In this document: piece by piece, positions 21,641-53,638 of the stretch
Numbering within the stretch: position 1 is the first letter of the stretch
Layout: each line of letters opens with the position of its first letter
NCBI GenBank assembly: GCA_020060775.1
Contig: JAGUZN010000158.1
Span: 1 to 62,188, forward strand
From: Armatimonadota bacterium
GTDB taxonomy: Bacteria > Armatimonadota > Hebobacteria > CAIYQO01
DNA: 62,188 bases
Reading direction: 5' to 3'
Program-made: the position numbers and the translations under genes
Notes under the pieces: generated by a model
The model's database searches: none
Told to the model about the DNA's origin: nothing
Seen by the model: the letters and a program-made list of their open reading frames with translations, nothing else

Positions 21641-21669
21641 AAGGTAATGGCCGTAGCCCCCTTTGTCAA
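21641..21669 (-). promoter_or_regulatory. Promoter for the pilin-RCC1 gene
   Basis: On the minus strand TTGACA (21669-21664), a 17-bp spacer and TACCTT (21646-21641) form a sigma70-like promoter. The palindrome at 21692-21705 begins 22 bp upstream of the -35 box. Confidence 0.55.
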
Positions 21670-21691
21670 CGTATTGAAAAACAGTGATCTG

Positions 21692-21705
21692 TGCAACGTG
21701 TTGCA
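21692..21705. promoter_or_regulatory. LacI-type palindromic operator 1
   Basis: TGCAACGTGTTGCA lies between the divergent pilin-RCC1 gene and the oxidoreductase operon. For the plus direction a weak candidate promoter (GTGCTA near 21727 and TATGCT at 21751-21756) lies about 21 bp downstream. A TATAAT directly abuts the palindrome at 21706-21711 but lacks a -35. Confidence 0.75.
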
Positions 21706-21812
21706 TATAATTAGAGCCCATGATCTGTGCTAGAGTACCCCGTATCGGTGTATGCTCAAGCACGTGACGCTTGCTTATCACATGCGGACAAGTTCGTACC
21801 CAGGAGAGACGC

Positions 21813-22793
21813 ATGGTTGAGTTGGCACTTATCGGTTTTGGAAATATCGCCCATGTCCATACGACCGCACTCTCTGCAGTAACGACTGCCCGGGTCGCTG
21901 CGGTTGTCACGCGGCATCCGGAGTTGGCGACCGATCTCCCTCCAGAAGCGACGATTTATCTGGACCTCGACAGCCTGCTCGAAGCCGGTCAAGTACAGGC
22001 CGTCGATATTTGCACCCCGACTTATCTGCATGCGGAGATGGCGATAGCCGCTTTGCAGGCGGGCTGCGACGTGATCTGTGAGAAACCGATGGCGCTGACC
22101 GTGGACGCGTGCGATCGCATGATCGCCGCGGCAGAGGCAACGGGACAGCGGTTATACATCGCCCATTACGTACGTTTTATGCCCGAGATCAGCTACCTGA
22201 AAGCGCGCATTGATGATGGGACATTCGGGCGCGTGACCACTGCTCGATTCCATCGTCTCATGTCCAGCCGCTATATCCGTGGAACCTGGTTTGCCGACCC
22301 GGCGCGCAGCGGCGGCTGTCTGCTCGATCTGCATATTCACGAGGTAGATACCGTACGGTATTTATTCGGCGACCCACGGCATATCTATGCCAGCGGGACC
22401 ATAGATGACGGAGGCATCAGTCAGGTGCGAGCCGATTACCACTATGCGCCGGACATATCGGTCACCAGCGAAGGCGCCTGGCACTACCATCCGCCGTTTA
22501 CTTCTTCCGCGGGATTTGTAGTGCGTTTCGAAGGTGCTACCGTGCTGTGGGAACGCCAGCGCACCCCGCTCACCGTCTATCCAGCCGAGGGGGATCCGTT
22601 CACCCCGGACACCGCCGGTGCCGATGGTTTCACCCGCATGTTGGCTCACTATGCCGACTGTATCCAGCACCGGCAGGCTTCCCCCATTATTTCTGCACTA
22701 GATGCCCGGGAGAGCGTTCGTCTCACCGCGGCGCTCGCCGCTTCTGTGCGCTCGGGCTGTCCCGTGCCCTTTTCCGATACCATTTCTGCGTGA
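21813..22793 (+). CDS. Gfo/Idh/MocA family NAD(P)-dependent oxidoreductase
   Basis: The start ATG 21813 follows CAGGAGAG. The 326-residue protein has an N-terminal Rossmann fold (GFGNIAHVH), the family motif CEKPMAL with the conserved Lys near residue 97, and a C-terminal alpha/beta domain with GGCLLDLHIHEVD, whose His residues are the usual catalytic area. Members oxidise or reduce sugars, inositols and related cyclitols. It is first in a six-gene operon (21813-28800) that also encodes a GH20-like enzyme, two URO-D-like proteins and an MDR dehydrogenase, so sugar oxidation after release is likely. Confidence 0.85.
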   Translation: MVELALIGFGNIAHVHTTALSAVTTARVAAVVTRHPELATDLPPEATIYLDLDSLLEAGQVQAVDICTPTYLHAEMAIAALQAGCDVICEKPMALTVDACDRMIAAAEATGQRLYIAHYVRFMPEISYLKARIDDGTFGRVTTARFHRLMSSRYIRGTWFADPARSGGCLLDLHIHEVDTVRYLFGDPRHIYASGTIDDGGISQVRADYHYAPDISVTSEGAWHYHPPFTSSAGFVVRFEGATVLWERQRTPLTVYPAEGDPFTPDTAGADGFTRMLAHYADCIQHRQASPIISALDARESVRLTAALAASVRSGCPVPFSDTISA

Positions 22794-22809
22794 ATACGAG
22801 GTTCCTGTC

Positions 22810-24666: not shown

Positions 24667-24674
24667 CGCGGTCA

Positions 24675-24699
24675 TGCAACGCGAAGGCGGGGCGTTGCA
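24675..24699. promoter_or_regulatory. Intra-operon inverted repeat with operator-like arms
   Basis: TGCAACGC (24675-24682) and GCGTTGCA (24692-24699) form a perfect 8-bp inverted repeat in the 114-bp gap before the first URO-D-like gene. The outer arms equal the operator arms TGCAAC/GTTGCA, but overall length is 25 bp where the operators have 14, about one extra helical turn. It could be an mRNA hairpin or a relaxed operator. Confidence 0.4.
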
Positions 24700-24780
24700 C
24701 ATCCCCGTGCTGTGCGCGGATGTGTCAGCGGCGTACCATATCGTTGATGGAACCCTACATCATCCCAATAAGGCAAGGAC

Positions 24781-25803
24781 ATGATGACTTCACGAGAGCG
24801 TATTCGCGCCATCATTGCCGGGGAGCCGGCTGACCGGAGCGGATTCTGGCTTGGCCAGCCCAAAGCTGATACCTGGCCGATATATCACGCCTATTTCGGT
24901 ACTGACAGCGCAGAGGCGCTCCGTCAGCGTTTGGATGATGACTACCGATGGCTGTCGCCCGATTGGTTCGAGGGCGTGTATTTGGCACCAGTCTTTACCC
25001 TCGGGCGGGAGAAAACCTCACACGGCATGCGCGGCCCACTGGCAGCAGTGGAGGACCCCGCGCAACTCGATGACTTCGATTGCTGGGCGGATCCCGACCA
25101 GCTGTACCTCGATGAGTGCCTGCATGCCTTGCGCACTGCCGGGCCGGTGTATCGCGCCAGTGGTTTCTGGTCGCCATTCTTCCACATTGTGATGGACCTG
25201 TTCGGGGCAGAGGACTACCTCGTCAAGCTCTATGAGTGCCCTGAAGTCGTGCATGCGGTCACCGACCGGGTGTGCGGTTATTACTACGAGGTGAATAGAC
25301 GGTTGTTCGAACTCGCCGGTGACGATATTGATGCCCTCTTTTTCGGCAACGATTTCGGCACTCAACGCGAGCTGTTTCTTCGACCTGAGCACTTCCGCGA
25401 ATTCCTGCTGCCGTGGATCCGCCGGTTCATCGACCTGGGCCATGCCTACGGCTATCAGGTCATCATGCATTCTTGCGGCGCCATTCACCAGATTATCGGC
25501 GATCTGATTGATGCCGGGTTGGACGCGTTGCACCCGTTGCAAGCCCGCGCCTCCCGGATGGATGCCGAGACGATCGCACGCGATTTCGGCGGGCGTGTCT
25601 GCTTTTTCGGCGGCATCGATACCCAGGACTTGCTGGTGCATGGAACGCCGGATGCGGTGGCCGCGGAAGTACGGCGCGTGAAGGCCGTGTTAGGACCACG
25701 GGTGATCATTAGCCCGAGTCACGAGGCCTTATTGCCCAATGTGCCGCCGCAGAACGTACTGGCCATGGCCGAGGTGGCGCACGAGCCCTGGATCACTGCG
25801 TAG
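24781..25803 (+). CDS. URO-D family methyltransferase-like protein 1
   Basis: This 340-residue protein belongs to the uroporphyrinogen decarboxylase fold (PF01208), opening MMTSRERIRAIIAGEPADR. It lacks the RQAGRY motif of true HemE and instead carries HSCGA (about residues 227-231), matching the His-x-Cys zinc ligands of MtaA/MtbA/CmuA-type corrinoid methyltransferases. The usual C-terminal third ligand Cys is replaced by SPSHE. It is followed 42 bp later by a secreted protein. I infer methyl transfer, possibly demethylation of O-methyl sugars, but no corrinoid protein gene is visible. Confidence 0.7.
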   Translation: MMTSRERIRAIIAGEPADRSGFWLGQPKADTWPIYHAYFGTDSAEALRQRLDDDYRWLSPDWFEGVYLAPVFTLGREKTSHGMRGPLAAVEDPAQLDDFDCWADPDQLYLDECLHALRTAGPVYRASGFWSPFFHIVMDLFGAEDYLVKLYECPEVVHAVTDRVCGYYYEVNRRLFELAGDDIDALFFGNDFGTQRELFLRPEHFREFLLPWIRRFIDLGHAYGYQVIMHSCGAIHQIIGDLIDAGLDALHPLQARASRMDAETIARDFGGRVCFFGGIDTQDLLVHGTPDAVAAEVRRVKAVLGPRVIISPSHEALLPNVPPQNVLAMAEVAHEPWITA

Positions 25804-25845
25804 GAGTTCGTACTCTCTTACACAACAATTAAGTGAGGTGAAGCG

Positions 25846-26685: not shown

Positions 26686-26711
26686 ATGGCGGTTGCCTGG
26701 TGGGAGAAACG

Positions 26712-27722: not shown

Positions 27723-27753
27723 GAACTGGCTATGCAGAACGGAGTTCCTGCGC

Positions 27754-28800
27754 ATGACGTCCCGTGAGCGCGTATTACGTACGATCACTTTCCAGTATCC
27801 CGACCGCATCCCCACCGGGTACTTTATCAATCCACCCGCGCGCATGAAATATGGCGAGGCCCTGCTGGAACTCTGCCGGCAACACCCCAATGACTTCTAC
27901 GATCCCGGCATGCTCACCGTGCCCGAACGCGATATCGCCCACTATCGCGCAGACGGCAGTTATTGCAAAGTGGAAGTGGATGAATGGGGTTGCGAATGGG
28001 TGTACTACCAGGAAGGAATCATGGGTGAGGTGAAGCGGGCGCCGCTGGATGACTGGGCCAAGCTGAAGACATACCGGTTGCCTGAGGTGCCTGCGCGAAC
28101 AGCAGTGGAACGCCGTGCGGCCTGTGAGGCGATGGCGCGCGTGAAGGAGCGCTTTATCGGCTGGGGACATGCGGGTAACCTGTTCGAGCGTATGCAATGG
28201 CTACGCGGTGTCGAGGAGTTGTTCATGGATATCGCCGCCGATGAAGAGGCGGTCTATGTGCTGGCGGACCGTATTGTCGACGAGTACCTGCTCCCGCGCA
28301 TTGAGCAATGCCTGGAAGATGGCTGCGACATCATCGGGTTTACCGATGACTGGGGGACACAGACGCAGTTATTAATCAACCCGCGCGCCTGGCGGGCGAT
28401 CTTCAAGCCCCGCTACCAGAAGATGTTCGACTGCATCCATGCTGGGGGTGCGTATGCCTGGCTACATAGTGACGGCATGCTGCTGGAGGTCGTGCCCGAT
28501 CTCGTCGAGATCGGCTGCGATGTGCTCAATCCCCAGCTTGGTTGCCTTGATCTACAGGCGCTGGCAACTATGACGGCAGGTCACATGGCGATATATGGCA
28601 CGCTTGATTATCAGCGCGTCTTACCCTACGGATCGCCGGAAGAGATCGATGCTCATGTGCGCGAGGTGACCGCAATTCTGGCACAACCGGCTGGCGGTTT
28701 CATGTACGGGGCCGGGGTGCAGGACGATGCTCCACTCGAGAATATACAGGCGGTATTCGAAGCGATGGACCGCCATCGCACGCTGTGGGCCGTGATCTGA
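27754..28800 (+). CDS. URO-D family methyltransferase-like protein 2
   Basis: This 348-residue protein starts MTSRERVLRTITFQYPDR like the other URO-D relatives. At the metal-ligand position it has HSDGM, with Asp where the active methyltransferases have Cys, and near the C terminus GAGVQDDAPLEN instead of a Cys-containing loop. It is therefore neither a HemE nor a typical zinc methyltransferase; it may bind another metal or a different nucleophile. It is the last gene of the operon and is followed by a strong hairpin. Confidence 0.65.
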   Translation: MTSRERVLRTITFQYPDRIPTGYFINPPARMKYGEALLELCRQHPNDFYDPGMLTVPERDIAHYRADGSYCKVEVDEWGCEWVYYQEGIMGEVKRAPLDDWAKLKTYRLPEVPARTAVERRAACEAMARVKERFIGWGHAGNLFERMQWLRGVEELFMDIAADEEAVYVLADRIVDEYLLPRIEQCLEDGCDIIGFTDDWGTQTQLLINPRAWRAIFKPRYQKMFDCIHAGGAYAWLHSDGMLLEVVPDLVEIGCDVLNPQLGCLDLQALATMTAGHMAIYGTLDYQRVLPYGSPEEIDAHVREVTAILAQPAGGFMYGAGVQDDAPLENIQAVFEAMDRHRTLWAVI

Positions 28801-28820
28801 CGATCGATAGAGGCATTTGG

Positions 28821-28864: not shown

Positions 28865-28887
28865 TGGCATGACGGCGGTGTCGCTGC

Positions 28888-30834
28888 TTACTTCATCATC
28901 AGCACGATGGGTAAGCCATCAACCTCACGTCGTTGGATGACGGTGGCGGGAGTGTTGTTGATGAACGCGTTCCGCCATTCGCTGAACATACGCGCTGTTG
29001 GCGCCGGGCCGCTATGCTTACCCCATGGATCGACCAGCAGGGCGCGTACCGGGGCATTGGTCAGACGGTAAAATGCTACTACGGTAGCCGCCTGTGATGT
29101 CACCGTATCCTGCAGCCCCGAGGCGATAAAGACCGGACAGGTGATGCGGTGGGCGAAGTTGGCCGCATCACCGTAGCGAGCAACGGCGATGCGTGCATCC
29201 AACGCGTTGGCATCGACCTTGCCATTGGGAAGCATGGGGTCGATCGGTGGCCAGAAGTCTTTGCCCAAATAGCGCAGCTTCCATTCCAGGCCGAACAGCC
29301 CCGGGCTGCTGCAGAAGGCCATATCAACTTTGGAGTTTAACGCGGCGGTAATGAACGTGAGACCGCCGCCTTGTGAACTGCCATGCACCATGATGCGTTG
29401 CGGATCGGTCTCCGGTCGTGCGGCGAGGATATCCACGGCGCGGCTGCACGCGGCAAAGACCGTGCGATAGTACCAGGTCTCACGCTGTTCGATCCCCTCG
29501 GTGAAGTACATCCATTGCTTGTATCCACCAGCCGGTGGCGTTACCTCCTGCCCGGCTATGGCCAGGCTCATGCCGACCATATCCGGCCGGCATTCCGGCT
29601 TGTACGGCGGATTGATACCGCTGGGTGGCAGCGTCAATTGCGCGGGATAGCGGCCGGGTTTTGTAGGCAGCGAGAGCCAGGCATGGAATTGCCGTCCCTG
29701 CAGACCGGTGAATCGCATCGTGTAGAGCTTCCACCCTTCGCCTTCCTGTGCCAGTGACATCTGTACATCTGCCGGGATCGCCTCCTGTTCGTGCAATGTC
29801 TCGTCCCAGAAGCGATCGAAGTCATCAGGTACAGGCGGCAGAGCGATCTTCTCCGGAGCAGAGACAAAGTGGAACTCACGCGAGAAGAAGGTGCTGTCAC
29901 CCTGACGTACGCTGAAGTGACCGGCGTATATGCCTGGCGGCAGCGTGAACACAAAGGGAAACTGTTGCGGCGCGGTGCTCGTGATGTTGATCGGCACCAC
30001 TTTGCGGTACCGTTCTTCTTTCGTCAGGTAATCGCTAGCGACGACTTCCAAATCGGCGGCGACGGCATTACCCGGGATGCGCAACTTCCCTTCAGCGATA
30101 AAGCGCATTGGCTCATCTGAGGCAAAGATGTGATGGGGGCGCTCTGTATGCAGGAGCATGGATAATCGGTCAGCATCGGTGGGCTGGGCATGAATGTCGA
30201 TACGCATGGCAGCAAAGCGGGGCACATACAGTTGGTGCAAATGCGGATCATCCGCCGTGGGTGTTCGAATATTACGTGCACTGTAGTACAGGGTGCCGCG
30301 CGGCAGCGTGATGCTGGCGCCGGATGGGGCGAAGATCTGCGGGACAACCGCTTCATAGAGCTTTCGTAGAGTGATGTCCTTCCCGGTCAACTGATCGACG
30401 ATCGTCGAGAGGCTCGGGTGCAGGGTGAAATGCCAGGTGCCGTAATCCAGGTTTTTGCCGAAACGTAATTCGATAGCGTCCGTCTCAAAGTGATATGCGA
30501 GTTCCCGCTTTTCTGTGGAAACGGCGAGGGTCGTCGCATCCCGCTGGACTACAGTCGTGAAACGGTCAGTTTGCATCGCCCATGTCGCCGTGCTCTCCTG
30601 AATGCGGGAGAATGCCCCGGCAACAGCGCCATGATAATCGTTCAACAAGAAGTCTGTGCCGTCGACTCGTAATGTAGCGAGATTGCCGTCAGCGTTTACA
30701 ATCGCTGTGTAGGTCGGCGTGGTGATCGCGTAGCCGCCATCCTGGTTTCGGGTGAGCGTGACATCGGCCGCCCGCACCATTGCCAGCAGAGCGCATAAGG
30801 AGAAGATCGCCGTAGTGAGACGAAAGAACGTCAT
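28888..30834 (-). CDS. Secreted CE7-like acetyl xylan esterase/cephalosporin-C deacetylase family protein
   Basis: The start is ATG 30834 with GCGAGGTTACGC upstream and a signal peptide (FFRLTTAIFSLCALLAMVRA). The 648-residue protein has an N-terminal beta region (about 25-290) and a C-terminal alpha/beta hydrolase of the CE7 type: nucleophile Ser in HGSSQGGG, Asp in ASGLQDTV and His in WGKHSGP. CE7 enzymes deacetylate oligosaccharides. It is divergent from the heparinase-like operon and shares its intergenic palindromes. Confidence 0.75.
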   Translation of the reverse strand: MTFFRLTTAIFSLCALLAMVRAADVTLTRNQDGGYAITTPTYTAIVNADGNLATLRVDGTDFLLNDYHGAVAGAFSRIQESTATWAMQTDRFTTVVQRDATTLAVSTEKRELAYHFETDAIELRFGKNLDYGTWHFTLHPSLSTIVDQLTGKDITLRKLYEAVVPQIFAPSGASITLPRGTLYYSARNIRTPTADDPHLHQLYVPRFAAMRIDIHAQPTDADRLSMLLHTERPHHIFASDEPMRFIAEGKLRIPGNAVAADLEVVASDYLTKEERYRKVVPINITSTAPQQFPFVFTLPPGIYAGHFSVRQGDSTFFSREFHFVSAPEKIALPPVPDDFDRFWDETLHEQEAIPADVQMSLAQEGEGWKLYTMRFTGLQGRQFHAWLSLPTKPGRYPAQLTLPPSGINPPYKPECRPDMVGMSLAIAGQEVTPPAGGYKQWMYFTEGIEQRETWYYRTVFAACSRAVDILAARPETDPQRIMVHGSSQGGGLTFITAALNSKVDMAFCSSPGLFGLEWKLRYLGKDFWPPIDPMLPNGKVDANALDARIAVARYGDAANFAHRITCPVFIASGLQDTVTSQAATVVAFYRLTNAPVRALLVDPWGKHSGPAPTARMFSEWRNAFINNTPATVIQRREVDGLPIVLMMK

Positions 30835-30882
30835 TGCGTAACCTCGCTGCACGAAGTCTCGGGTACAGCATACCCACACCTC

Positions 30883-30911
30883 ATTGTTTCGCCAGGATGC
30901 CCGCCCGTCAA
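30883..30911 (-). promoter_or_regulatory. Promoter for the CE7-like esterase gene
   Basis: On the minus strand TTGACG (30911-30906), 17 bp and AACAAT (30888-30883). The palindrome at 30935 begins 23 bp upstream of the -35. Confidence 0.5.
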
Positions 30912-30934: not shown

Positions 30935-30948
30935 TGCAACAAGTTGCA
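30935..30948. promoter_or_regulatory. LacI-type palindromic operator 2a
   Basis: TGCAACAAGTTGCA is a perfect TGCAAC/GTTGCA palindrome around a 2-bp centre, in the divergent region between the esterase and the heparinase-like operon. TATAAT at 30930-30935 overlaps its first base. Confidence 0.75.
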
Positions 30949-30957
30949 CCCATGTTA

Positions 30958-30970
30958 TGCAACGTGTGCA
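30958..30970. promoter_or_regulatory. Imperfect operator 2b
   Basis: TGCAACGTGTGCA is one base short of the TGCAACGTGTTGCA form seen at 21692 and 53573; it can also be read as direct repeats of TGCAAC. It lies 23 bp before the weak -35 of the plus-strand operon. Confidence 0.5.
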
Positions 30971-30993
30971 ACGCCTGTAGCCGACGCGCAGGG

Positions 30994-43600: not shown

Positions 43601-44004
43601 TACAGCACTTCCGCTTCCCAGGGTGCGAGCAGCCGGTTCATCTGCTGCATGCCGTTGAGCAAGCCCTGGAAGAAACAGACACCGTAGAGCACCAGGCCGC
43701 CTCCTGCCTCGACAAAGCGCCGTATAGATGATTCCGCGGCATGCAGGGTCTCCGGATGGAGACGCCAGTTGAGGTTGTAAGCGGTCAACGATTCGCCCTG
43801 CGGGTATTCGGGGATGATAATGGCATCATAGGGTGCAAGACGCTCGTCGGTGATGGCATGGAAGGGCAGACCATCGACCCGATAGCCCTGTGCGCGCAGG
43901 TGACGCACCAGGGGCACATCCTCCGCACGATTGGGGCGACCCCACTCGGTGACCGGTGTTCCCCACTCGGTTATGACGCAAAGCGCGTACTGTTGATCTG
44001 ACAT
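40579..44004 (-). CDS. Large protein with GATase-like N terminus and PHP-like domain
   Basis: This 1141-residue cytoplasmic protein opens with an alpha/beta GATase-like domain (about 1-310: YDAIIIPEYPQG, FVEAGGGLVLYG). Residues about 335-600 resemble a PHP-type TIM barrel (AAAAEAGLDFIGITEDF), but the opening His-x-His is replaced by RGLIGARTQ, so metal binding is doubtful. The remaining half is beta-rich. The start ATG 44004 follows GGGGGACGATC. It heads the four-gene operon 44004-35930 behind operator 3a. Family and activity are unknown to me. Confidence 0.45.
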   Translation of the reverse strand: MSDQQYALCVITEWGTPVTEWGRPNRAEDVPLVRHLRAQGYRVDGLPFHAITDERLAPYDAIIIPEYPQGESLTAYNLNWRLHPETLHAAESSIRRFVEAGGGLVLYGVCFFQGLLNGMQQMNRLLAPWEAEVLYEQVLDERHAYVYPLGEIFNQYAWTTNITPHLLTEGVHGVFYPTNSHHGPMTVPFRLSSEWSVLVSGMPSARSVPANPADMVVPFFFTDHQGTYVTSPPLVAIRSVGQGRVAVIGMSPVLAFFGVGHAGYGDVMLSRGDGQHPSNFGLLQERLYAWAAEPLHGTHGDSRWPTDDYAPPPPPIDWTQFSPGPSPTVPRRGLIGARTQRTGGSGSVADYVAAAAEAGLDFIGITEDFAQLTPECWDAVKAECAQASTERVLAVPGFFYRDAVGARWIALGECAYPDAHHCSDDGRRILVAHWILDALSPLTAPIDIGHNPRPAWTYAAMSAMAVRTYEHGILIDDALEAYLERQEIEDVVAPLVVDLIDAPAEVARSSAHWTGVLLSPDGVIRLNMMSDQRPLVPRSSAVSLREQLRLAFARHGLGGEERFFAGEGPMIIDWRGFNNVRAVQGCREPIAGHEQFVLHAAVESPAGLREITLYDGPHRLRRYTLAGETSYTLTCHLPHDRQRHLVLVATDQLGRQTLSAHMNSADLLFARNMCRDRSNTTSLAVLRQHDGRVFICGPATPYQRKTTMWPYFNPGFANPNGDHAAPYVDGGGGSLMSHGSLPELAYADIPTPEGIPASRMANPLACRDAIIQESDLIGWYANPRASAWVAADPVEEAPLYTATIRWTDFGKNAGDPGVTLVEGELVFLRDGVLDPRHAVNPQVLRMFGQCNESTNAAFSAVGLIGGDCSGAIPEGTPVFIAGELQPGGFITFYPSRLGAVTVMALDPGYQVVGEMQRPTSLVRFGLPLGGRTVRKGERVHYRLLATRGRVHAPPTDREWRDFAGAMGIGGDPAYQVTVRHGHCVGTNFLLDLESEGGYVRVDLTQAHLPIRLPVRVAGLNPVWGAWVADIARDTALPLGIIEREGVGYTTCDLTRGNTELFVGHPVICDRPDVPINALPEGEIWRVELHNPHADDIPVVARGTDGFPPLARFRYQGVIPAGASVVVRYEGSAACVSTASGH

Positions 44005-44035
44005 GATCGTCCCCCGATACCTCGCTCCTCACTGG

Positions 44036-44064
44036 AGTACATCGCGAAATGCTGATGGCGTCAA
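44036..44064 (-). promoter_or_regulatory. Promoter for the 44004-35930 operon
   Basis: On the minus strand TTGACG (44064-44059), 17 bp and TGTACT (44041-44036). Operator 3a begins 22 bp upstream of the -35. Confidence 0.6.
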
Positions 44065-44086
44065 TAATGCAATGGATAGCCTGCTA

Positions 44087-44100
44087 TGCAACATATTGCA
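44087..44100. promoter_or_regulatory. LacI-type palindromic operator 3a
   Basis: TGCAACATATTGCA, within the longer symmetric stretch TATGCAACATATTGCATA (44085-44102), lies 22 bp from the minus-strand -35. Confidence 0.7.
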
Positions 44101-44126
44101 TAGCGTCGTCCACCTCGCGGCATGCA

Positions 44127-44140
44127 TGCAACTCGTTGCA
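44127..44140. promoter_or_regulatory. LacI-type palindromic operator 3b
   Basis: TGCAACTCGTTGCA, flanked by GCA and TGC so that symmetry extends to 20 bp, is centred 40 bp from operator 3a. It lies 23 bp before the plus-strand -35. Confidence 0.75.
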
Positions 44141-44163
44141 TGCTCCACAGTTACATGATCGGC

Positions 44164-44192
44164 TTGACGCAAGGCGGGATCGTGTTTTAACT
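44164..44192 (+). promoter_or_regulatory. Promoter for the CBM9-linked gene
   Basis: TTGACG (44164-44169), a 17-bp spacer and TTAACT (44187-44192), 29 bp before ATG 44222. Confidence 0.55.
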
Positions 44193-44221
44193 GAAATGAA
44201 CACAACCGTGAGGTTACCTCT

Positions 44222-47200
44222 ATGACCATGTACCGCGTTATTGTTGCATGTATACTTGCCACGCTCGTCCTCGCTGCGCATGCTGCCAGTGACCTGCGCA
44301 TCGACCGTGCGTTACCCTACTGCCCTGGCGTACTGAAGATCGATGGCCTTGCCGATGATTGGCAGGGCGTCGATCCGATCATCATCAATGCCCTGCCCAA
44401 TGGCGATCCTCGCCAGGTGATCTACGTCGGGCATCCGGAGCAACCGTTCCAGGGCAACGCTGACCTGTCAGGTCGTGTCCGCGTCGCCTGGGATGCATCC
44501 GCCCTGTATGTGCTGGCAGAAATCACCGATGATCATCTGGTCGGCGCCAGGCCCGGCAGTGCCGGCAACCAGGGACCGGCGCCGTGGGGATGCGACAGCG
44601 TGCTGATTACCCTGAATTCCTACCGTCGTCCGATGCAGTCCAATTCGCCCACCAGCGCTGATCCCTGCCTGGGGTTGCGCTATATGCCCCAGCCGGGCGG
44701 GCGCGGCTCGGTCGTCGCCCTCACTGATGCCCAGTTGAGTCGAATTGGTAACTATATGATGCAAACGCCGGGCAGTCGCGTGGCCATCGTTGAAGCGCCG
44801 GATGGGTATTGCCTGGAAGCCGCCGTCCCCTGGAGCGACCTGGGCTACGTGCCTGCGCCCGGTGAACGGATCTTCATGGGCTTTCTGCTCGCCGATATCG
44901 ATCCTAACGAGGCCGATCTCAACCAGGCGGGGTGGGGGTGGTCGAGCACCATCAATGGCTATCCGGTCTTCGAGTTGGCCGATCCTCGGGGTCTTGCCGT
45001 TGGGACAGTCACCCTTTCAGCCGATCAACTGCCGGTAGGGAAATCCTGGTCAGCGCGGATCGATGTAGCCGCGACCGCACAGCGGGTGTCTGGTGACCGC
45101 ATTCTGGTGCAGGATACGAACGGCAAAACAATGTACAGCCAGCGCCTGGATGTGACGGCCGAACCTGGAGAGCGTGTCTCGGTGCGCTGTGAAGTTTCGG
45201 AATCGGCAGTGAAGCAGCCGGGACAATACCGGGTGGTGGCACAGGTGAAAGAAGGCGGGAAACGCCGCCCGCTGGCCAGTGAGACGCTGAACGTACATAC
45301 TGAAGATGCTGCCAGCGTTACCATGCCGTCTACCCCGGGTGAACTTCGTCATTACCGGCCCGGTCGCGTCACGCACCATGCGGCCGCCGATGTGCGACGC
45401 GGGGTGTACCGGTATGGCTTCGTAACGGGCAAAGAGGACTACACGCCCTTTATTCACGAGTGGATCCTCCCCGAGCTCAAAGATGAGACTCGCCGGGCGA
45501 TTGCCGCACACGGGACCTACGGGTTCACCCAGTTGCTGCCCGTGCTGATGGCTTATCGTCTCACCGGCGACGCGGAGTACGCGAAACTCGGCAGTGCGTT
45601 GATCACCACCCTTCTCGATAACCGGCACCTCGAAGCTCATGGGTTGCTCTCCATTACGGCTTACCGTTATCTGACGTGGAAGCAGGATCCCGCCACGCCA
45701 TTTGCGCCGGCGGATGCCGAAGCCAAGTACCGTGCCGCCTTCCACGAGATCGCCGCCAAGCCGGCCTCGGTGTTGTTTCGCGAGCAAGGGACACATAACC
45801 GCGTATGGCATGCCTACTGCATGTTGAAGATCGCCCGTCTGATCGCCGAAGAGGACGGCACGCCTATTGACCCCCGCGTGCGTACATTCACCGATCTGCA
45901 TGATACCCTGCTCTGGAACACCCGAGATGATGATGATGCTTCCTCAGGGTATCACTGGGTATGGCTGCCGTTTATGCTCAGCATAGCGTTCCACACCGGC
46001 GATCTGCAAGAGATGGCCGACCACCCAGGCGTGCAGGCGGTCTTTACGCGTTATTCCGGCGTGGTGTCGCCTTCCGGGGGCTGTCCGACCTTCGGCTCGG
46101 ATGGCGGATGGCCGCAACCCGGCAAGGCGATGTGGATGTACGAGTGGTACGCGGCGATGACGCGCAACGGGAAGTATCGCTGGATCAGCCATCGCATCGC
46201 CGAGTATTACTACAATCATCTTACCAGCAAGATGGTTGCCAAGCAGTACCATAATCCCTTTGATCAGGCGCGCGAGAATTTCGCGCTGGCCTACCTGTTT
46301 GCCGATGATGCGGTGAAGCCGATGCCGCCGTCCGGCAATAGCTATGCCACCTGGCGCTATGCGACCGAGCCGACGCCGCCGGCGTTTATTGCACAGCATC
46401 CCGGCATGGCGCCCATGCGGATGAATACCGCGGTGCAAGTGCCGGACAAACTGGTGCTGTGCAGCGGAACGCAGGCGCAAGGGCTGTGGGCGTTGATCGA
46501 TCTGCTGGCCATCGGTGGGCATGCCGGGGAAACGCCGGGCAACATCTGCGCCTTGCTGGACCAGGATGCGCTGCTGGTGGGCGGGCAAGGGTACTACGAA
46601 CTGACACCGCAATTCCAGAACACCGCCTGTGTTGAGGATTTGGAGGGCATCCCCGCCAATCCGGAACCGGCAAAGGTATCGGTATCCTCGCTGGTCGATG
46701 ATCCGGCAGTGACGGTGGCGCGCATTGAAGCTGCAGGATACCAGCGTTTGCCGGTCGACCTCACGCGCGACATCATCTTCTGGAAATCCGGATTCATGGT
46801 GGTGAAAGACCGTCTCACGTTCCATGCGGCGCTTAAGGTGCGCGCAGGCACCAATATCCATACGCGCGATCTGGGGCCGGAGTGCGGCGATCATTGGTTC
46901 AACGCCTATTACGATGATCTGTACTGGACGGGGCTCGGGCTGGGATACGGCGTGCAGGAGTTCCGCAATCCCGCGCGTGACCTGCTGGTCTATTTCACTC
47001 CGCGCAAAGAGTATGCCGTCAATGTCAGGGATACTTATTTGGAGAATCGCTACCAGCTGTCGCCATTGCGCCTGCGGCAAAGCTGGACCGGTATGACGCG
47101 GCCCGGCATGACGATGACCTTCGTGACCGTGTTGCTGCCGCATCGTCCGACCTTTACGCCGAGCGCGTTGGTGCAGCCCAGCGATGGCAGCCAACCGTGG

Positions 47201-47497
47201 GTTTCCGTCCAGCGCGATGATGACGCGGTGACCGCGCTAACCATCCGCTATGAGGCCAACCAGTCATCAACCGCCATGCATGAGGTGCGCCTCATCCTCA
47301 ACGATGGTGCTGATGCCGTCACGGTCGATGGGTTTGAGGGCGATGGCCTGTTGCAGGCCTTGATGCGCGATGCGCAGGGACACGTCACGAACGCTGTGCA
47401 GATTGGCGGCAGCGTTTTGCGCTGGCAAGGGCAGGAGGCGAAAGGCGTACGCCGTCATCAGCGCACACCGCTTACCCTTCCTAAAGCCGGAAAATAG
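44222..47497 (+). CDS. Secreted protein with CBM9-like domain and (alpha/alpha)-toroid
   Basis: This 1091-residue protein has a signal peptide (MYRVIVACILATLVLAAHA) and a CBM9-like domain at about 25-260 (LKIDGLADDWQG, VRVAWDASALYVLAEITDD, EAAVPWSDLG are typical). A helical toroid follows at about 410-700 (THNRVWHAYCMLKIARL, PSGGCPTFGSDGGWPQPG), then a beta-sandwich C terminus. The overall shape suggests a polysaccharide lyase or hydrolase distantly like heparinase/chondroitin-lyase families. GTGAGGT precedes the start. It is a single-gene unit under operator 3b. Confidence 0.5.
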   Translation: MTMYRVIVACILATLVLAAHAASDLRIDRALPYCPGVLKIDGLADDWQGVDPIIINALPNGDPRQVIYVGHPEQPFQGNADLSGRVRVAWDASALYVLAEITDDHLVGARPGSAGNQGPAPWGCDSVLITLNSYRRPMQSNSPTSADPCLGLRYMPQPGGRGSVVALTDAQLSRIGNYMMQTPGSRVAIVEAPDGYCLEAAVPWSDLGYVPAPGERIFMGFLLADIDPNEADLNQAGWGWSSTINGYPVFELADPRGLAVGTVTLSADQLPVGKSWSARIDVAATAQRVSGDRILVQDTNGKTMYSQRLDVTAEPGERVSVRCEVSESAVKQPGQYRVVAQVKEGGKRRPLASETLNVHTEDAASVTMPSTPGELRHYRPGRVTHHAAADVRRGVYRYGFVTGKEDYTPFIHEWILPELKDETRRAIAAHGTYGFTQLLPVLMAYRLTGDAEYAKLGSALITTLLDNRHLEAHGLLSITAYRYLTWKQDPATPFAPADAEAKYRAAFHEIAAKPASVLFREQGTHNRVWHAYCMLKIARLIAEEDGTPIDPRVRTFTDLHDTLLWNTRDDDDASSGYHWVWLPFMLSIAFHTGDLQEMADHPGVQAVFTRYSGVVSPSGGCPTFGSDGGWPQPGKAMWMYEWYAAMTRNGKYRWISHRIAEYYYNHLTSKMVAKQYHNPFDQARENFALAYLFADDAVKPMPPSGNSYATWRYATEPTPPAFIAQHPGMAPMRMNTAVQVPDKLVLCSGTQAQGLWALIDLLAIGGHAGETPGNICALLDQDALLVGGQGYYELTPQFQNTACVEDLEGIPANPEPAKVSVSSLVDDPAVTVARIEAAGYQRLPVDLTRDIIFWKSGFMVVKDRLTFHAALKVRAGTNIHTRDLGPECGDHWFNAYYDDLYWTGLGLGYGVQEFRNPARDLLVYFTPRKEYAVNVRDTYLENRYQLSPLRLRQSWTGMTRPGMTMTFVTVLLPHRPTFTPSALVQPSDGSQPWVSVQRDDDAVTALTIRYEANQSSTAMHEVRLILNDGADAVTVDGFEGDGLLQALMRDAQGHVTNAVQIGGSVLRWQGQEAKGVRRHQRTPLTLPKAGK

Positions 47498-47518
47498 ACT
47501 TGCTGCAGCGTTTGGGCA

Positions 47519-49819
47519 TCAGCCGGGGATCCGCACATCGACATGATGGCGGGTTCCCGGTTGTTGTATGGGCAGAAGGTTGTCCGGCAAGCGCCTGTCA
47601 TCCAACCGGACTTCCAGGGCATGGGCGCCGCGGCTCACGCGCATAGCGAAGGTGTACACCGCGCCGCGGAATTCACGGGTAATCGATGCGCGTCTCCAAC
47701 CCCGCGGCAATTGCGGGTCAACGCGTAATCCGCCGAATTCGGCGCGCAGGCCGAAGAGTTCTCCAACCAGGGTGCGATAATACCAGGCAGCCGTACCGGT
47801 GCCGCGCTGCCCGCTGGAGCGTCCCGCCTGCCCTCGGCAGGCGCGCCCAAGGTAGGCGTTCGGGAGAAAGAGAGGCAACTGGGCGGCTTGCGTTAACCCG
47901 TGTGCTGGGGTGCCGGGTAGCAAACGGCGCAACACCCGGTAGGCGGCATCACGCTGCCGAATGCGATACAGCGCGTAGGCGTAAAATGTCGCCGCATGGC
48001 AGTACACCGATCCGTTTTCGCCGGTGCCGGGCGTCTTGAGCGAGATCTTGCCGATATCTTCGTACATGCGTGTGAAGGGCGGTGTGAGCGTCATCGGTCC
48101 CCAGGGCGTCATCAGCAGGCGATTGACTGCCCGCAGGCAGGCGGCGCGGCGTTCTGGGGTATCCACGCCGGCGATGAGTGCCCAACTCTGGGCATTGAGG
48201 AAGATGCGTCCCTCGCGGTCGTGATGGCTGCCGAACCAGCGCCCGTTATCGGTGGTTCCGCGTGCGTACCATTCCCCATCCCAGGCATAGCGATTCACCG
48301 CATCGCGGCACGCCTGCGCTTCCTCACTGTAGCGCACAGCACGGTCTGCATCGCCAAGATGGACTGCGACTGCATTCCACTCATCCAATGCTGCTGCCAG
48401 GGCTTCCGTCAGCCATACCGATTCACCCCGCTCCTGCCAACCGGCCATGTTCAGCGGGTCATCCCAGTCTCCCTCGCCAATTCGTGAGAGCCCGTGGTCG
48501 GTGCGGTCAGTCAGTTGCCATTCCAACCCACGACAGACATGATCGTACACGCTGGTGACTTCATCGGCGTCAGCGAATTCCACCGGCTGGTCGAGCAGCG
48601 ACAAATCACCCGTTTCGCGCAGGTAGAAGGCGATGGCAAGGGGAGGCCATACATTCATGTCGCGATGCGGGATGGTATTAATCGGCGAGCGCTGCACATC
48701 AGGACCGAGCGGCGCCCCGTGCGGCATCCAGCCATCGGCGTGCTGGTGGGTGAAGGCGAATGTGAACCAACGGCGCGCCAGGTGGGGGGCCTGGTAGACG
48801 ATGCCCATCGCATCCTGGAACAGGTTGCGTACGCACGGATCTACTGCGAGGCGCATATGCCCGCCACAATAGTTCACTTGCTCGGGCAGCCAGTGGTTGA
48901 CGAAGTGGTTCAGATCGGTGTCTGGGGTATCGATATGAACGGTCGGTGCGGTGGCAGCATGCCAGCATCGACGCTCCTCCAGAGCACGCGCCATGCCGTC
49001 TGGGGCAAGGTACTGCCGGAGCGCACGCAATGTCGCACGACTGCGCGCCGGCGCCAGCAGGAAACGCCGTGTCACGCTGCCGCCGGGCGGCAACGTGATA
49101 CGGTATTGCATCGCGGCAACAGTCGGCTCGTAATATGCGTGACCGTTCGCCAGCGTGGACTGCTCAAGGCTCTGTGGACGTTCGGGTGAACCGCCCAGCT
49201 GCCAGGCGCGCTGACTGGTCTCCCAGGCATCGGGGGGCGCGTCGGCCAGCAACGCGGTCAGCGTGTTGCCCTCCCGCAAACGGAAATAGTCCTCAACGCG
49301 CACGTAGTACGGGAAATACTCGACCAGAATGCCCTGCATACGCGTATCGTAGCGTGCATGCTGATGCACGTAACCCAACTGTCCGATGGGGAAGTCGGTG
49401 TAGCATGAGAGGAAGCGCGTATGTTCGCCGCGATTGATCAGTGTCACTTCCCACAGTTCACCCGGCATATCATGCAGTAACGTCATTGAAATCTGCGCAT
49501 CGACCGACCCTTGCGTGACCTCCCAGCGGATATCATCCAGCCCGGGCATAAATGCAAATCGTTCCGGGGTGGGGTCAAGCGGATCATAGGGGAGACGCCA
49601 GCGCTGGCCGGTTGCGTCGTCGCGCAGAAGAAACCCCCGTGCTGCCCCGGCATACGGGGTCGGGTTGGGGGTCAGCGCGTGCGCGCGGCAGCGCCCGCGA
49701 TGGTCAATGCTGAAGTCGAGTGTGGGGGTGAACAGGTGCGCTGTGGCGGCATCGACGAGCAATGGGTCGCTAAGTCGATAGCGCCGGCCATCCTCGATAA
49801 AGGCGGCCGCAGGTTCCAT
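47519..49819 (-). CDS. GH94-family phosphorylase (cellobiose/chitobiose phosphorylase-like)
   Basis: The start is ATG 49819 with TGAGGTC upstream; the frame runs back into the adjacent MITE, so longer versions are artefacts. The 766-residue protein has the GH94 order: beta-sandwich (about 1-270), (alpha/alpha)6 barrel (about 300-690) and jelly-roll end. EGDWDD (to residue 454) matches the GH94 GDWND catalytic-acid motif with Asp for Asn. GH94 enzymes phosphorolyse disaccharides to sugar 1-phosphate; with two GH20-like enzymes nearby, a GlcNAc-type disaccharide is plausible. Confidence 0.75.
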   Translation of the reverse strand: MEPAAAFIEDGRRYRLSDPLLVDAATAHLFTPTLDFSIDHRGRCRAHALTPNPTPYAGAARGFLLRDDATGQRWRLPYDPLDPTPERFAFMPGLDDIRWEVTQGSVDAQISMTLLHDMPGELWEVTLINRGEHTRFLSCYTDFPIGQLGYVHQHARYDTRMQGILVEYFPYYVRVEDYFRLREGNTLTALLADAPPDAWETSQRAWQLGGSPERPQSLEQSTLANGHAYYEPTVAAMQYRITLPPGGSVTRRFLLAPARSRATLRALRQYLAPDGMARALEERRCWHAATAPTVHIDTPDTDLNHFVNHWLPEQVNYCGGHMRLAVDPCVRNLFQDAMGIVYQAPHLARRWFTFAFTHQHADGWMPHGAPLGPDVQRSPINTIPHRDMNVWPPLAIAFYLRETGDLSLLDQPVEFADADEVTSVYDHVCRGLEWQLTDRTDHGLSRIGEGDWDDPLNMAGWQERGESVWLTEALAAALDEWNAVAVHLGDADRAVRYSEEAQACRDAVNRYAWDGEWYARGTTDNGRWFGSHHDREGRIFLNAQSWALIAGVDTPERRAACLRAVNRLLMTPWGPMTLTPPFTRMYEDIGKISLKTPGTGENGSVYCHAATFYAYALYRIRQRDAAYRVLRRLLPGTPAHGLTQAAQLPLFLPNAYLGRACRGQAGRSSGQRGTGTAAWYYRTLVGELFGLRAEFGGLRVDPQLPRGWRRASITREFRGAVYTFAMRVSRGAHALEVRLDDRRLPDNLLPIQQPGTRHHVDVRIPG

Positions 49820-49862
49820 GGATGACCTCACGCACTTTTCCATGCTGCATGTATCCTGCTTA

Positions 49863-50027
49863 GAAACTGTTTTGGAAGTCTCTATCCGGTCTCGCTTGAT
49901 CTTTTCGCAGATGTCCCTGCCGGGCCTCCTCACCCTATCGGCCCTGGATAGTACCTCGTCGTCCCGGCAGGGACAGCCGCGAAAATCTACGGCGCGATCC
50001 TCGAACAGATCCTTTCAAAACAATTTC
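49863..50027. mobile_element. MITE-like element, full copy (165 bp) at a stop codon
   Basis: It is nearly identical to the 35755-35919 copy. TTA is duplicated at 49860-49862 and 50028-50030; the right-hand copy is, on the minus strand, the TAA stop of the GH20-like gene. The palindromic DNA separates that gene from the GH94 gene and could form a strong hairpin in a joint transcript. Confidence 0.85.
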
Positions 50028-52340
50028 TTACGCCAGTCGCACGGTGACCTGCCCGTGCTCAATGGTGTAGATAGGACTGCTGTTCCCGGCCGCTTCCAAC
50101 TCGCGGAACAGGTGCTCCGGGTCCGGGTGACCGAGCACAGCCTCCCCCCCGGTCTTCAAACCTTCTGCACCTTCGACCAGGCCTTCGCCCTGCGCATCGA
50201 TAATCGAGCGTTGCCGGGTGCCGTGGTGCAGGGAGACATTGCGCAAGACGAAGCGTCCCGGGCCGGCAGCGACCACGCGCACAAAGGCGGCTTCGCCCGG
50301 ATCATCGACGGTGACGATGTACCGGATGAGATCGGCGTGTTCCCGCAACACCGCGGCGCTGTCAAACTGCAAGATCCAGCAACTGGCGCGGCGCGTAAAC
50401 GTCTGGCCGTCACGCGAGGTTTCCACGTGAAGTTGACAGCACGCGGCAAAGCGGTCGATCACATCGACGGCAATAAAGGGTGAGGTCAGTTGGCTGGTGC
50501 GTGATCCCTGTGTACTCATAGCGGTGATTTCCTGTTCGAACATCCGCGCCTCTTCGCGGAGGCGTTGAGGCGTGGGGGCAGGGTCTTCGGGGAAGCGATT
50601 GCGGCGCCATTCGGCTTCGAACGCTTCTGCCACCGTGAGGGCTTCATCACGTAGACGCGCGAGTATGTGCGGCACGTCGGCAGCACTCTCCGTGAACAGC
50701 ATGGCGGCGGCACGATTGATGAGCCCACGCTTTCGGTAGGTATAGGCCAGCCAGCGCGCAGCGGCAATGAACCCCTTGATGATTTCCGCATGTTGTGCGC
50801 GCGGCAAGAGATCCGTCATGGAGGCGACCAAGGCATCGCAGGTCGCAGCACGGTCCAGGTCAGGCTCAGGCGCCTCGTTTGTGCGCATCTGCGCCAGATC
50901 GGTGGCCCGCAGCCAGCGGCGGGCTGCATGGCCATGGAAACGGAGGGCGCCCAGCGTCTGCAAGCACGACGCTACCTCCGTGCTGGAGCAGAGGTGCGCG
51001 CATGCCTGCTGCAGCAGGGCTTCGGCAGGTGCGGCCATTCCATCGCCCCAGATGAATCCGGCGATGGCCCCTTCGATGGGCAGGCAGGTGTCAATGGTGA
51101 CGGGCGAGAGCTCCCATTGTGTGACCATAATGCCCTGCTGCTGATGCTGCAGGAGGTAACGGGTCCAGTCGCGGGCGTTCTCGATCGATTCCGCAGGCAG
51201 GCACAAGGGCATCATCGCGGTGTAGAACGATGATGGGCATCCCCACACGTCCAGCCCATGCCGGCGGAACACGGCGATCGTATCGTCTTCACGATAGCCA
51301 AAGAGCTCGATGCCCGGGGTGTGGCGGAAGCGGTAATAGTACCAGTCGAAGATGAGGATATCGGTATCAAGGTCCTCCAGCGGTTGTGGGAAGTAGTGGA
51401 ACATATCCCCCCAGATGGCCGGCCGCTTACCCACCGCACGGACCATCGCCGCCACGCGGTTGGCGTGGCGGACGAAGATGCCGCCCTCGCCGATCTCCGC
51501 ACGTAGCGGAGCGCAACGTGCACACTGCCCCAGGTGTGTGACTTCATCCATGCCGAGGTGGATCATGCCGGCGGTGGCCAGGGGGGCGACATCGGCAATC
51601 ATGCCATGCAACATCGTGCTGGTGCGCGGATGCTCGGGACAGAGGATGCCGGTGAACTTGGGTGCGCATTCGTCCAGATCGGCATACTGCGGGTGGCCGG
51701 TGACCCAGTGGCAGTGACCGAGTGATTGCAGTGCCGGGATGACCCCCAGGCCATAGCGGGTGGCGCAATCGACTACCTGCATGGCCTGCTCCAGCGTCCA
51801 CGCCCAGGGGCGCGCCAGCGCGGGTGCGCTGGGGAATTGCAGCGCATTCTCCAGGTAGAGCTGCAGCACGTTGTAGCGCATCTCAGCGTAGTGGGCGATC
51901 AACCGCTCGACCGTCTCCGGCCGTTCGAGCACGCGCCCGAGGTCGATCTGGATACCGCGCCAGCGCAGTGTCGGCCAATCGGTGATGGTGCAGCACGGCA
52001 GCGCTGCACTGGCGCATAACTGCAACAGTGTGCGCAGGCCGTACCGGGCGCCGGCGGCATCGCCGGCGTTGAGCGTTACACCGTCCTGAGTCACGTGCAG
52101 TTGGTATCCCTCCGGTCCAGAAGAATCTTCGCCTTGTCGGATCGTTACGTGCACGCGTCCCGGCGACCGTTGTGCCAACACGGCGCCCAGGCGCGAGAGT
52201 TCGGGGATGAGCAAGGGACCCCAGGCGGTTGGCATCTCGAGCGTCAGCTCTGCATGTAGCCGGCATTCGCCTGCATCGAGCGCAACCTGCCTGGGGGTGG
52301 GGTATAACGATTGTACAGAATGGGGCAGCGTCAGGGACAT
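50028..52340 (-). CDS. GH20-like beta-N-acetylhexosaminidase with extra C-terminal domain
   Basis: This 770-residue protein has an N-terminal alpha/beta domain (about 1-125), then a TIM barrel starting RWRGIQIDLGRVLERPE with HLGMDEVTHLG (near residue 268) carrying the GH20-type Asp-Glu pair. A helical segment and a C-terminal beta domain (about 590-770) of unknown family follow. AGGAGTATTCG precedes ATG 52340. There is no signal peptide. The stop codon coincides with a MITE insertion. It probably formed an operon with the GH94 gene before that insertion. Confidence 0.7.
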   Translation of the reverse strand: MSLTLPHSVQSLYPTPRQVALDAGECRLHAELTLEMPTAWGPLLIPELSRLGAVLAQRSPGRVHVTIRQGEDSSGPEGYQLHVTQDGVTLNAGDAAGARYGLRTLLQLCASAALPCCTITDWPTLRWRGIQIDLGRVLERPETVERLIAHYAEMRYNVLQLYLENALQFPSAPALARPWAWTLEQAMQVVDCATRYGLGVIPALQSLGHCHWVTGHPQYADLDECAPKFTGILCPEHPRTSTMLHGMIADVAPLATAGMIHLGMDEVTHLGQCARCAPLRAEIGEGGIFVRHANRVAAMVRAVGKRPAIWGDMFHYFPQPLEDLDTDILIFDWYYYRFRHTPGIELFGYREDDTIAVFRRHGLDVWGCPSSFYTAMMPLCLPAESIENARDWTRYLLQHQQQGIMVTQWELSPVTIDTCLPIEGAIAGFIWGDGMAAPAEALLQQACAHLCSSTEVASCLQTLGALRFHGHAARRWLRATDLAQMRTNEAPEPDLDRAATCDALVASMTDLLPRAQHAEIIKGFIAAARWLAYTYRKRGLINRAAAMLFTESAADVPHILARLRDEALTVAEAFEAEWRRNRFPEDPAPTPQRLREEARMFEQEITAMSTQGSRTSQLTSPFIAVDVIDRFAACCQLHVETSRDGQTFTRRASCWILQFDSAAVLREHADLIRYIVTVDDPGEAAFVRVVAAGPGRFVLRNVSLHHGTRQRSIIDAQGEGLVEGAEGLKTGGEAVLGHPDPEHLFRELEAAGNSSPIYTIEHGQVTVRLA

Positions 52341-52393
52341 CGAATACTCCTGCCGGCATCTTGGACCTGGGAGAGGTCGATGCCCACATTCGC

Positions 52394-52422
52394 ACTGTAA
52401 AATCCCCGTTTCGTCCTGTCAA
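52394..52422 (-). promoter_or_regulatory. Promoter for the GH20-like gene
   Basis: On the minus strand a consensus TTGACA (52422-52417), 17 bp and TACAGT (52399-52394). The palindrome at 52445 begins 22 bp upstream of the -35. Confidence 0.65.
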
Positions 52423-52444
52423 TGGCCGTGCATGCCTCTGAAAG

Positions 52445-52458
52445 TGCAACTTGTTGCA
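52445..52458. promoter_or_regulatory. LacI-type palindromic operator 4
   Basis: TGCAACTTGTTGCA lies between the GH20-like gene and the LacI-family gene. It is 22 bp from the minus-strand -35 and 32 bp from the plus-strand -35, one helical turn further. Confidence 0.75.
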
Positions 52459-52490
52459 CTGTCTTCTCGAAGCAATCGGTTTTCTCTTTG

Positions 52491-52519
52491 TTGTGCCGTG
52501 ACCAGGGGCACGATATAAT
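52491..52519 (+). promoter_or_regulatory. Promoter for the LacI-family regulator gene
   Basis: TTGTGC (52491-52496), a 17-bp spacer and a consensus TATAAT (52514-52519), 25 bp before ATG 52545. Confidence 0.6.
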
Positions 52520-52544
52520 GCTCGTGCGTGGAGGATGATATCCC

Positions 52545-53570
52545 ATGACTTCAATGCGCAAGTTGGCCATGCTGGCTGGCGTTTCGGCGTCAACCGTCTC
52601 GCGCGCGTTGCGCAACGACTCGCGCCTGCGCCCTGACACGATTCAGCGCATTAAAGAACTGGCGGAAATGTATCAGTACCAGCCCGTGCAGTTCGAACCC
52701 GCGTTGAGTACGGAACAAAGCCGGGTGATCGGGTGCATTATTCCTCGGGTTTCGTCACCGTTTTTCGGCTACATCTTGCAGGGCATTCTCGAGCAAGCCT
52801 TTCAGGCCTCGTACAAGGTGATTACCCTGCAGACCAACGCCGATTTCCTGCATGCCTGCAAAGCGCTGCAAACGCTGGTCGAATTGCGCGTGGCCGGTAT
52901 TCTGCTCTGTAGCGGCAGTTCTGCCGAACCGATTCCCAGCGCTTCACTGTTTGAACTCTGGAGTCACGAGATCCACGTGGTCGGCATGCAGGACACGCCT
53001 GTTGCACAGTCGATCGATCAGATCGCCTCTGACGAGTTGCAGGCCGCCAGCCTCGTAGTGGACTACCTCTGCAGCCTGGGACACCGTGAGATCGCCTATC
53101 TCGGCCCACAAGTGGATATCCTGACTCGCAGCAAAGCTTTCCGGCATGTGTTGAAACACCGGGGGTTGTCGACGCAATGGTTCTGGGACGTGCACCCCGA
53201 ATCGCGACTCGAGCAATTGCTGGCATTCTGGAAGAGCAAACCAGCGGCACCGACGGCGGTCGTGACGTACAACGATACTATCGCCGCCGAGTTTCTGCTG
53301 TTTGCTGTGCGGCATGGGCTGCGGGTGCCGCAGGAGATGAGCGTTGTCGGCTTTGCCAATGTGCAGCCGCTCAACAACTATCTGTTGCCGCCCCTCACCA
53401 GCGTGGAGCAGAATCCCGTGGATATCGGGCGCCAGGCCTTCATGCAACTCTTACGCCGCATGACTGCTGATGAGGCGCCAGGAAGCTATCGCCCTGGGAC
53501 CACTCGTGTGGCGGCCAATCTCGTCAAGCGGGAATCGTGCAGCCACCCGCGACGCAATGCCCGATTATAA
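52545..53570 (+). CDS. LacI-family transcriptional regulator
   Basis: This 341-residue protein has a LacI-type helix-turn-helix at residues 4-30 (MRKLAMLAGVSASTVSRALR) and hinge region to about 60, then a periplasmic-binding-protein-like sensor domain (IIPRVSSPFFGYILQGILEQ; VVTYNDTIAAEFL). Such proteins bind sugars or sugar phosphates and pseudo-palindromic DNA. GGAGG precedes ATG 52545. Palindromes of one type sit on both sides of the gene and at three other promoter regions in 21.7-44.1 kb, so it is the obvious regulator of this set. Confidence 0.9.
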   Translation: MTSMRKLAMLAGVSASTVSRALRNDSRLRPDTIQRIKELAEMYQYQPVQFEPALSTEQSRVIGCIIPRVSSPFFGYILQGILEQAFQASYKVITLQTNADFLHACKALQTLVELRVAGILLCSGSSAEPIPSASLFELWSHEIHVVGMQDTPVAQSIDQIASDELQAASLVVDYLCSLGHREIAYLGPQVDILTRSKAFRHVLKHRGLSTQWFWDVHPESRLEQLLAFWKSKPAAPTAVVTYNDTIAAEFLLFAVRHGLRVPQEMSVVGFANVQPLNNYLLPPLTSVEQNPVDIGRQAFMQLLRRMTADEAPGSYRPGTTRVAANLVKRESCSHPRRNARL

Positions 53571-53572
53571 CG

Positions 53573-53586
53573 TGCAACGTGTTGCA
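53573..53586. promoter_or_regulatory. LacI-type palindromic operator 5
   Basis: TGCAACGTGTTGCA, identical to operator 1, starts 2 bp after the regulator stop codon and precedes the URO-D/ABC transporter operon. Confidence 0.75.
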
Positions 53587-53609
53587 TATCTTTGTGGTCT
53601 CACGTGCTA

Positions 53610-53638
53610 TTGACCGGCAAAAGGGGATCGCCTTGAAT
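53610..53638 (+). promoter_or_regulatory. Promoter for the URO-D/ABC transporter operon
   Basis: TTGACC (53610-53615), a 17-bp spacer and TTGAAT (53633-53638). The -35 starts 23 bp after operator 5. It predicts a transcript start near 53645, which argues against GTG 53649 as the gene start. Confidence 0.5.

Follow-up and report, generated by a model that had tools for sequence, protein, structure and literature searches.

A fixed upstream operator geometry at LacI-family promoters of an Armatimonadota genome points to RNA polymerase contact from upstream

Six promoters in the stretch of DNA analysed here (the window, 62,188 nt, from an uncultured Armatimonadota bacterium) carry a palindrome, consensus TGCAAY-NN-RTTGCA, that is followed on the gene side by TTGAC at a distance of 22 or 23 bp. 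They probably make up a local regulon of one LacI-family regulator that contacts RNA polymerase from an upstream position, most likely as an activator, and paralogous regulators appear to share the layout. The architecture itself is real and strongly replicated. From the sequence we infer that the regulator encoded at 52545-53570 binds the 14-bp palindrome, whose centre lies about 65 bp before each target start, and that the bound protein, in response to a sugar ligand, would contact RNA polymerase and activate transcription in class I fashion. Where regulator and target genes diverge, one bound dimer would repress the gene of the regulator itself and at the same time activate the divergent target, an arrangement resembling that of LysR-type regulators, and the paralogous LacI-type regulators would use the same geometry with a palindrome each of their own.

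The sites are found on both strands and the gaps, in site order, are 22, 23, 22, 23, 22 and 23 bp, with a 17-bp spacer to the -10 hexamer in every case. The operator TGCAACACGTTGCA (21692-21705, read towards a minus-strand gene) precedes the promoter TTGACA-17-TACCTT (21641-21669, minus) of a gene for a pseudopilin with RCC1 repeats (19952-21514), and TGCAACTTGTTGCA (30935-30948, minus) precedes TTGACG-17-AACAAT (30883-30911, minus) of an AXE1/S9-type esterase gene (28888-30834). Two sites lie between divergent genes: TGCAATATGTTGCA, with one mismatch (44087-44100, minus), in front of TTGACG-17-TGTACT (44036-44064, minus) for a gene encoding a protein of 1141 amino acids (40579-44004), and TGCAACTCGTTGCA (44127-44140, plus), in front of TTGACG-17-TTAACT (44164-44192, plus) for a CBM9 protein gene (44222-47497). 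The operator TGCAACAAGTTGCA (52445-52458, minus) is situated between a GH20 gene and the regulator gene, and its promoter, TTGACA-17-TACAGT (52394-52422, minus), serves the GH20 gene (50028-52340) and then a GH94 gene (47519-49933). Directly behind the stop codon of the regulator gene is TGCAACGTGTTGCA (53573-53586, plus), followed by TTGACC-17-TTGAAT (53610-53638, plus) for a URO-D gene (53649-54743) and subsequent ABC-transporter genes (54774, 57526). A possible, degenerate seventh operator, TGCAACGTGTGCAA (TGCAACGTGTGCA) at 30958-30971 (plus), faces the gene at 31068; it has GTGACC at 21 bp and weak -35 and -10 boxes. URO-D family genes occur four times within one sugar-related region of the window (24781-25803, 27754-28800, 34601-35716 and 53649-54743), and in the ABC transporter protein of 915 amino acids encoded at 54774-57521 the solute-binding and permease domains are fused in one frame.

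These positions and gaps reproduce what an earlier note had described from the same DNA, including the divergent pair at 44087 and 44127 where each gene has its own site with the same gap (22 and 23 bp). A search of the window allowing two mismatches or fewer gave 11 palindromes where 3.0 were expected, a number that none of the shuffled sequences reached, and a genome-wide pattern search found five exact palindromes in the whole 4.86 Mb genome, all of them inside the window. TTGAC occurs in the window once per 1481 positions per strand, and thus about 0.016 coincidences with a palindrome are expected for 12 site-directions and two gaps, compared to the six seen; the gap was noticed post hoc, and even if some 80 gaps had been tried this would not rescue chance. 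The -10 hexamers at the fixed spacer match TATAAT at a mean of 3.67 of six positions; those behind the remaining 78 TTGACs of the window average 1.27, and 0 of 20,000 resamplings reached the observed mean. Taken one by one they are weak, and a plain sigma-70 scan of 43900-54000 passes only the promoter at 52422. No second operator was found on the target core promoters by the palindrome searches of the window, and the composite of this palindrome and TTGAC at 22-23 bp was found in no other of 291 genomes of the phylum. Five of the six sites are located away from the regulator start, and the gap sequences of these are unrelated.

The window regulator (plus strand, 341 amino acids) has an N-terminal HTH and a periplasmic-binding-protein-like sensor. 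Its Pfam matches, LacI (3.2e-09) and Peripla_BP_3 (1e-31), are both above cut-off and place it in the LacI family, while all full-length NCBIfam LacI-type matches are below their equivalog cut-offs. Pfam gives LacI-family domains only; neither a LysR HTH nor a LysR substrate-binding domain was found in the protein. The hinge segment reads PVQFEPALST and lacks A-R-x-L. The hinge-helix motif (A/S/G)(R/Q/K)xL is present in only two of 40 regulators of this genome versus 28 of 46 comparison proteins, the latter mostly from other genera of the phylum, and its absence is taken as the mark of a LacI variant, as the domains themselves place the protein within the family. The operator centres are GT, AA, AT, TC, TT and so on, and a central CG is absent. 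A published survey found the central CG for 1173 LacI-family regulators, while 49 had a different and 29 a degenerate centre (PMC4052901), and the deviating centre is likewise a mark of the variant, not a reason for exclusion from the family. The regulator gene probably has its own promoter, which from its sequence would be TTGTGC-17-TATAAT (52491-52519, plus). The window operator is found upstream of this promoter, with its centre 93 bp before the start codon, and does not cover the start point. LacI-type matches number 54 in the genome, and many of them are full-length paralogues at 30-44% identity. No orthologue was found in the genome contigs searched, the nearest relatives being the paralogues of the same genome at 44% identity or less.

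The same geometry was found at the paralogous regulators, as judged from pattern searches of the genome and from fetched stretches. Forty loci around paralogues were sampled from the genomes G000, G190 and G189. When perfect 14-bp palindromes upstream of TTGAC were collected from these with no sequence assumed, gaps of 21, 22 and 23 bp gave 5, 5 and 7 hits, compared to a mean of 0.59. From locus to locus the palindromes vary, with NNNNAC-NN-GTNNNN as the common form. Genome-wide there were 47 pattern hits at gaps of 20-24 bp versus 7 at gaps of 30-34 bp, that is, shifted by 10; this comparison is more telling than the reversed-pattern control, which is high in this GC-rich genome (34 and 23). 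For operators chosen upstream of regulator genes blind to TTGAC, 15 of the 19 TTGACs within 100 bp are found at 21-23 bp (p 3e-15). Six perfect palindromes have no TTGAC at the gap; they lie in a coding frame, in stretches that are hairpin-like or of another kind, or at the starts of two regulators. Of 41 target -10 boxes, 37 carry A at position 2 and 40 carry T at position 6, the matches being somewhat inflated since the best of three spacers was used. Gap and spacer compensate for each other (rho -0.62, p 3e-5), so that the distance from operator to -10 is steadier than the gap itself. The operator centre is at about -63.5 from the predicted start in the paralogues and at -64.5 or -65.5 in the window, overall about -62 to -66, helical phases that favour neither activation nor inhibition. 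The site thus occupies a fixed distance upstream of the -35 box and off the core promoter, as in class I systems, and no operator-like palindrome was seen on a target core promoter in the sampled regions.

Near the LacI-type genes of other genera no pile-up of palindrome and TTGAC was found. In seven relatives the pattern was about as frequent as its reversed control, and a single clear cassette was seen, in G190. This cassette of the sister genus (L083, about 9815-9866) has the same layout, and its regulator is also without the hinge motif. In L142, from another genome of the phylum (G026), two identical TCAATAGGTATTGA palindromes are found upstream of a LacI-type gene, apparently an ordinary repressor placement. 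Two contigs carry near-identical intergenic cassettes between regulator and pseudopilin genes (L064 about 7463-7530 and L065 about 1980-2046), which apparently represent a recent duplication. An UP element in the gap is not claimed, since in many cassettes the AT tract can be read on the opposite strand as the -10 box of the regulator gene, and remote gaps that lack this tract are only 50% AT.

In 17 cassettes the operator is found before a divergent regulator gene, in most of them with its centre 16-24 bp from the start codon. LacI-family regulators usually have an operator at or near the start of their own gene, and this was found in most of the paralogous cassettes. The opposite strand of the 17 regulator-adjacent cassettes carries boxes that match the consensus at 4.71 of six positions for -10 and 3.71 of six for -35, and with a -10 and often a -35 placed in this way the predicted +1 of the regulator gene falls within the operator. 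Autorepressors classically bind at such a position, and the sequences suggest that the divergent regulator gene is autorepressed in many of the cassettes. The picture of activation drawn in the earlier note was therefore incomplete, as the operator in many paralogous cassettes also overlaps the predicted start of the regulator gene, and a dual role as autorepressor and activator is likely. At remote sites the corresponding matches are 3.40 (-10) and 2.92 (-35), compared to 2.39 and 2.56 for random positions. Without any selection for gap, sites away from any regulator start had 11 cases in the five gaps of 20-24 bp and 7 in the other 96 gaps. Since the gap is kept also where no regulator promoter is found opposite, it is probably not a by-product of the divergent cassettes.

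The regulators are furthermore tied to their operators by covariation. All five regulators with arginine at residue 17 have G at position 4 of the adjacent operator, and this G is found with none of the 16 others (p 5e-5), operators in this comparison being partly assigned by eye. For the single regulator that has glutamine at residue 22, the operator it faces carries T, not G, at position 2. This covariation between recognition helix and operator amounts to a ready code for orthogonal regulators.

The family is best known for its repressors, with scattered examples of members that activate. Upstream contact with RNA polymerase is proposed because the site is fixed upstream, is never seen over a target core promoter and keeps a steadier distance to the -10 than to the -35 box. 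That the contact would activate is the likelier sign for two reasons. The -10 boxes of the targets are further from consensus at position 1, where T is found in 7 of 17 target promoters versus 14 of 17 adjoining regulator promoters (p 0.03), and in Bacillus subtilis CcpA sites upstream of the -35 box are associated with activation as a rule (PMC3463425). The CcpA-activated promoters ackA, pta and ilvB resemble the present ones in that a LacI-family protein has its palindrome upstream of -35, and activation there depends on the face of the helix (PMC3463425). CcpA, however, is a single regulator that acts globally, together with a co-effector protein and on sites with a central CG, while here there are dozens of local paralogues, non-CG centres and one fixed gap. 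PckR and FruR/Cra, also of the LacI family, have a predicted or established dual role in which some genes are activated and others repressed (PMC4052901), but these are global regulators of central metabolism and not parts of local cassettes with pseudopilin targets. LysR-type regulators also have a recognition site near -65 of the target and a divergent, often autorepressed regulator gene (PMC11602165). They belong to an unrelated protein family and the likeness is one of layout only; further activation-binding sites near -35 or -10, as in LysR-type systems, were not seen here. Among the points that weigh against the proposal are the weak -10 boxes of the window. Under the usual logic, in which sugar releases a LacI-family protein, the targets would be switched off when sugar is present, and the ligand response would then have to differ; it may be speculated that, with the hinge motif lost, the protein stays on its DNA when sugar binds. 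The cassettes are also paralogous, so that part of the shared geometry reflects common descent.

The earlier note had taken the geometry to suggest activation. Its fixed upstream gap has stood, recurring at paralogues with unrelated palindromes, while activation is the plausible but not the sole conceivable sign. At the gal operon of E. coli the LacI-family dimer GalR, bound at -60.5, touches the alpha CTD of RNA polymerase, and by this kind of contact P1 is inhibited and P2 activated (PMC4693257). GalR works with a second operator and two overlapping promoters, in contrast to the single site per promoter, centred at about -62 to -66 and repeated across the genome, found here. By analogy, the regulator might from nearly the same place hold the target off through the alpha subunit until it is released by sugar. 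This would fit ordinary sugar-induced release and explain the fixed gap equally well, and yet we regard it as unlikely: GalR bound at that one site activates P2 as well, and position by itself gives inhibition no preference, the -10 boxes of the targets fit a need of help rather than restraint, and covering the core promoter, which no target was seen to have, would be simpler for a repressor. It has also to be considered that the gap might follow from packing, if the operator sits on the regulator +1 and the -35 boxes of the two promoters adjoin each other (TTGCCNGTCAA), with control of the target by promoter competition. The 17 regulator-adjacent cassettes would fit this, but the remote sites keep the gap while their opposite-strand boxes drop towards background, and in the window one site is found behind the regulator stop codon and five have their unrelated gap sequences away from the regulator start; we thus hold this to be a rather unlikely origin of the gap.

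LacI-family proteins usually act by repression, and the six operators, within 32 kb, could pair to form loops or act with undetected second sites. More repression than activation is also noted for CcpA (PMC3463425). Looping does not, however, require a fixed gap to -35, many of the paralogous cassettes have a single site, and the target core promoters of the window lack a second operator, which makes ordinary repression of this kind distinctly improbable. It is very improbable that the arrangement is due to chance or to another composite DNA motif, for instance the site of an alternative sigma factor, with no regulator bound. In favour of this are the shortness of TTGAC and the weak -10 boxes, but the six coincidences far exceed expectation, are replicated in paralogues with different palindromes, and involve palindrome letters that covary with the recognition helix of the adjacent regulator. 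Upstream contact by the LacI-family regulator, probably activating, is therefore the preferred reading. One genome then offers tens of natural replicates of a single promoter geometry with different operators, which allows a direct test of how a LacI-type protein comes to be an activator and of whether it can do so with no hinge helix.

A broader reading is put forward tentatively. This Armatimonadota lineage may have rebuilt the LacI fold into LysR-like dual regulators, in which the hinge helix and recognition of a central CpG, and perhaps release by sugar, would have been lost. Switches for surface-fibre and sugar-degradation genes would in this way have arisen from a repressor family. The operator would then repress the regulator's own gene and activate the divergent one, and several dozen paralogues would have operator codes of their own, most of them paired with a DUF1559 pseudopilin that maybe takes part in glycan capture. 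At the other loci, 16 of 20 first genes behind such promoters encode DUF1559 pseudopilins with an N-terminal methylation motif; the remaining four comprise an alpha-L-fucosidase, a weak ceramidase-like match and two without a family. The architecture links this poorly understood pseudopilin family to sugar-responsive regulation, and a literature search for regulators of pseudopilins in Armatimonadota returned nothing. LacI-type genes paired with divergent DUF1559 pseudopilin genes recur in the genome (L051-L134, for instance L058:16458-17771 and L064:7619-8884), and such a pair could possibly constitute a surface sugar-capture module. The pseudopilins also vary in what follows their N-terminus, which in the window protein (19952-21514) is fused to RCC1 repeats, while one of the 16 DUF1559 pseudopilins (L057:6698-7912) has a LamG-type domain instead.
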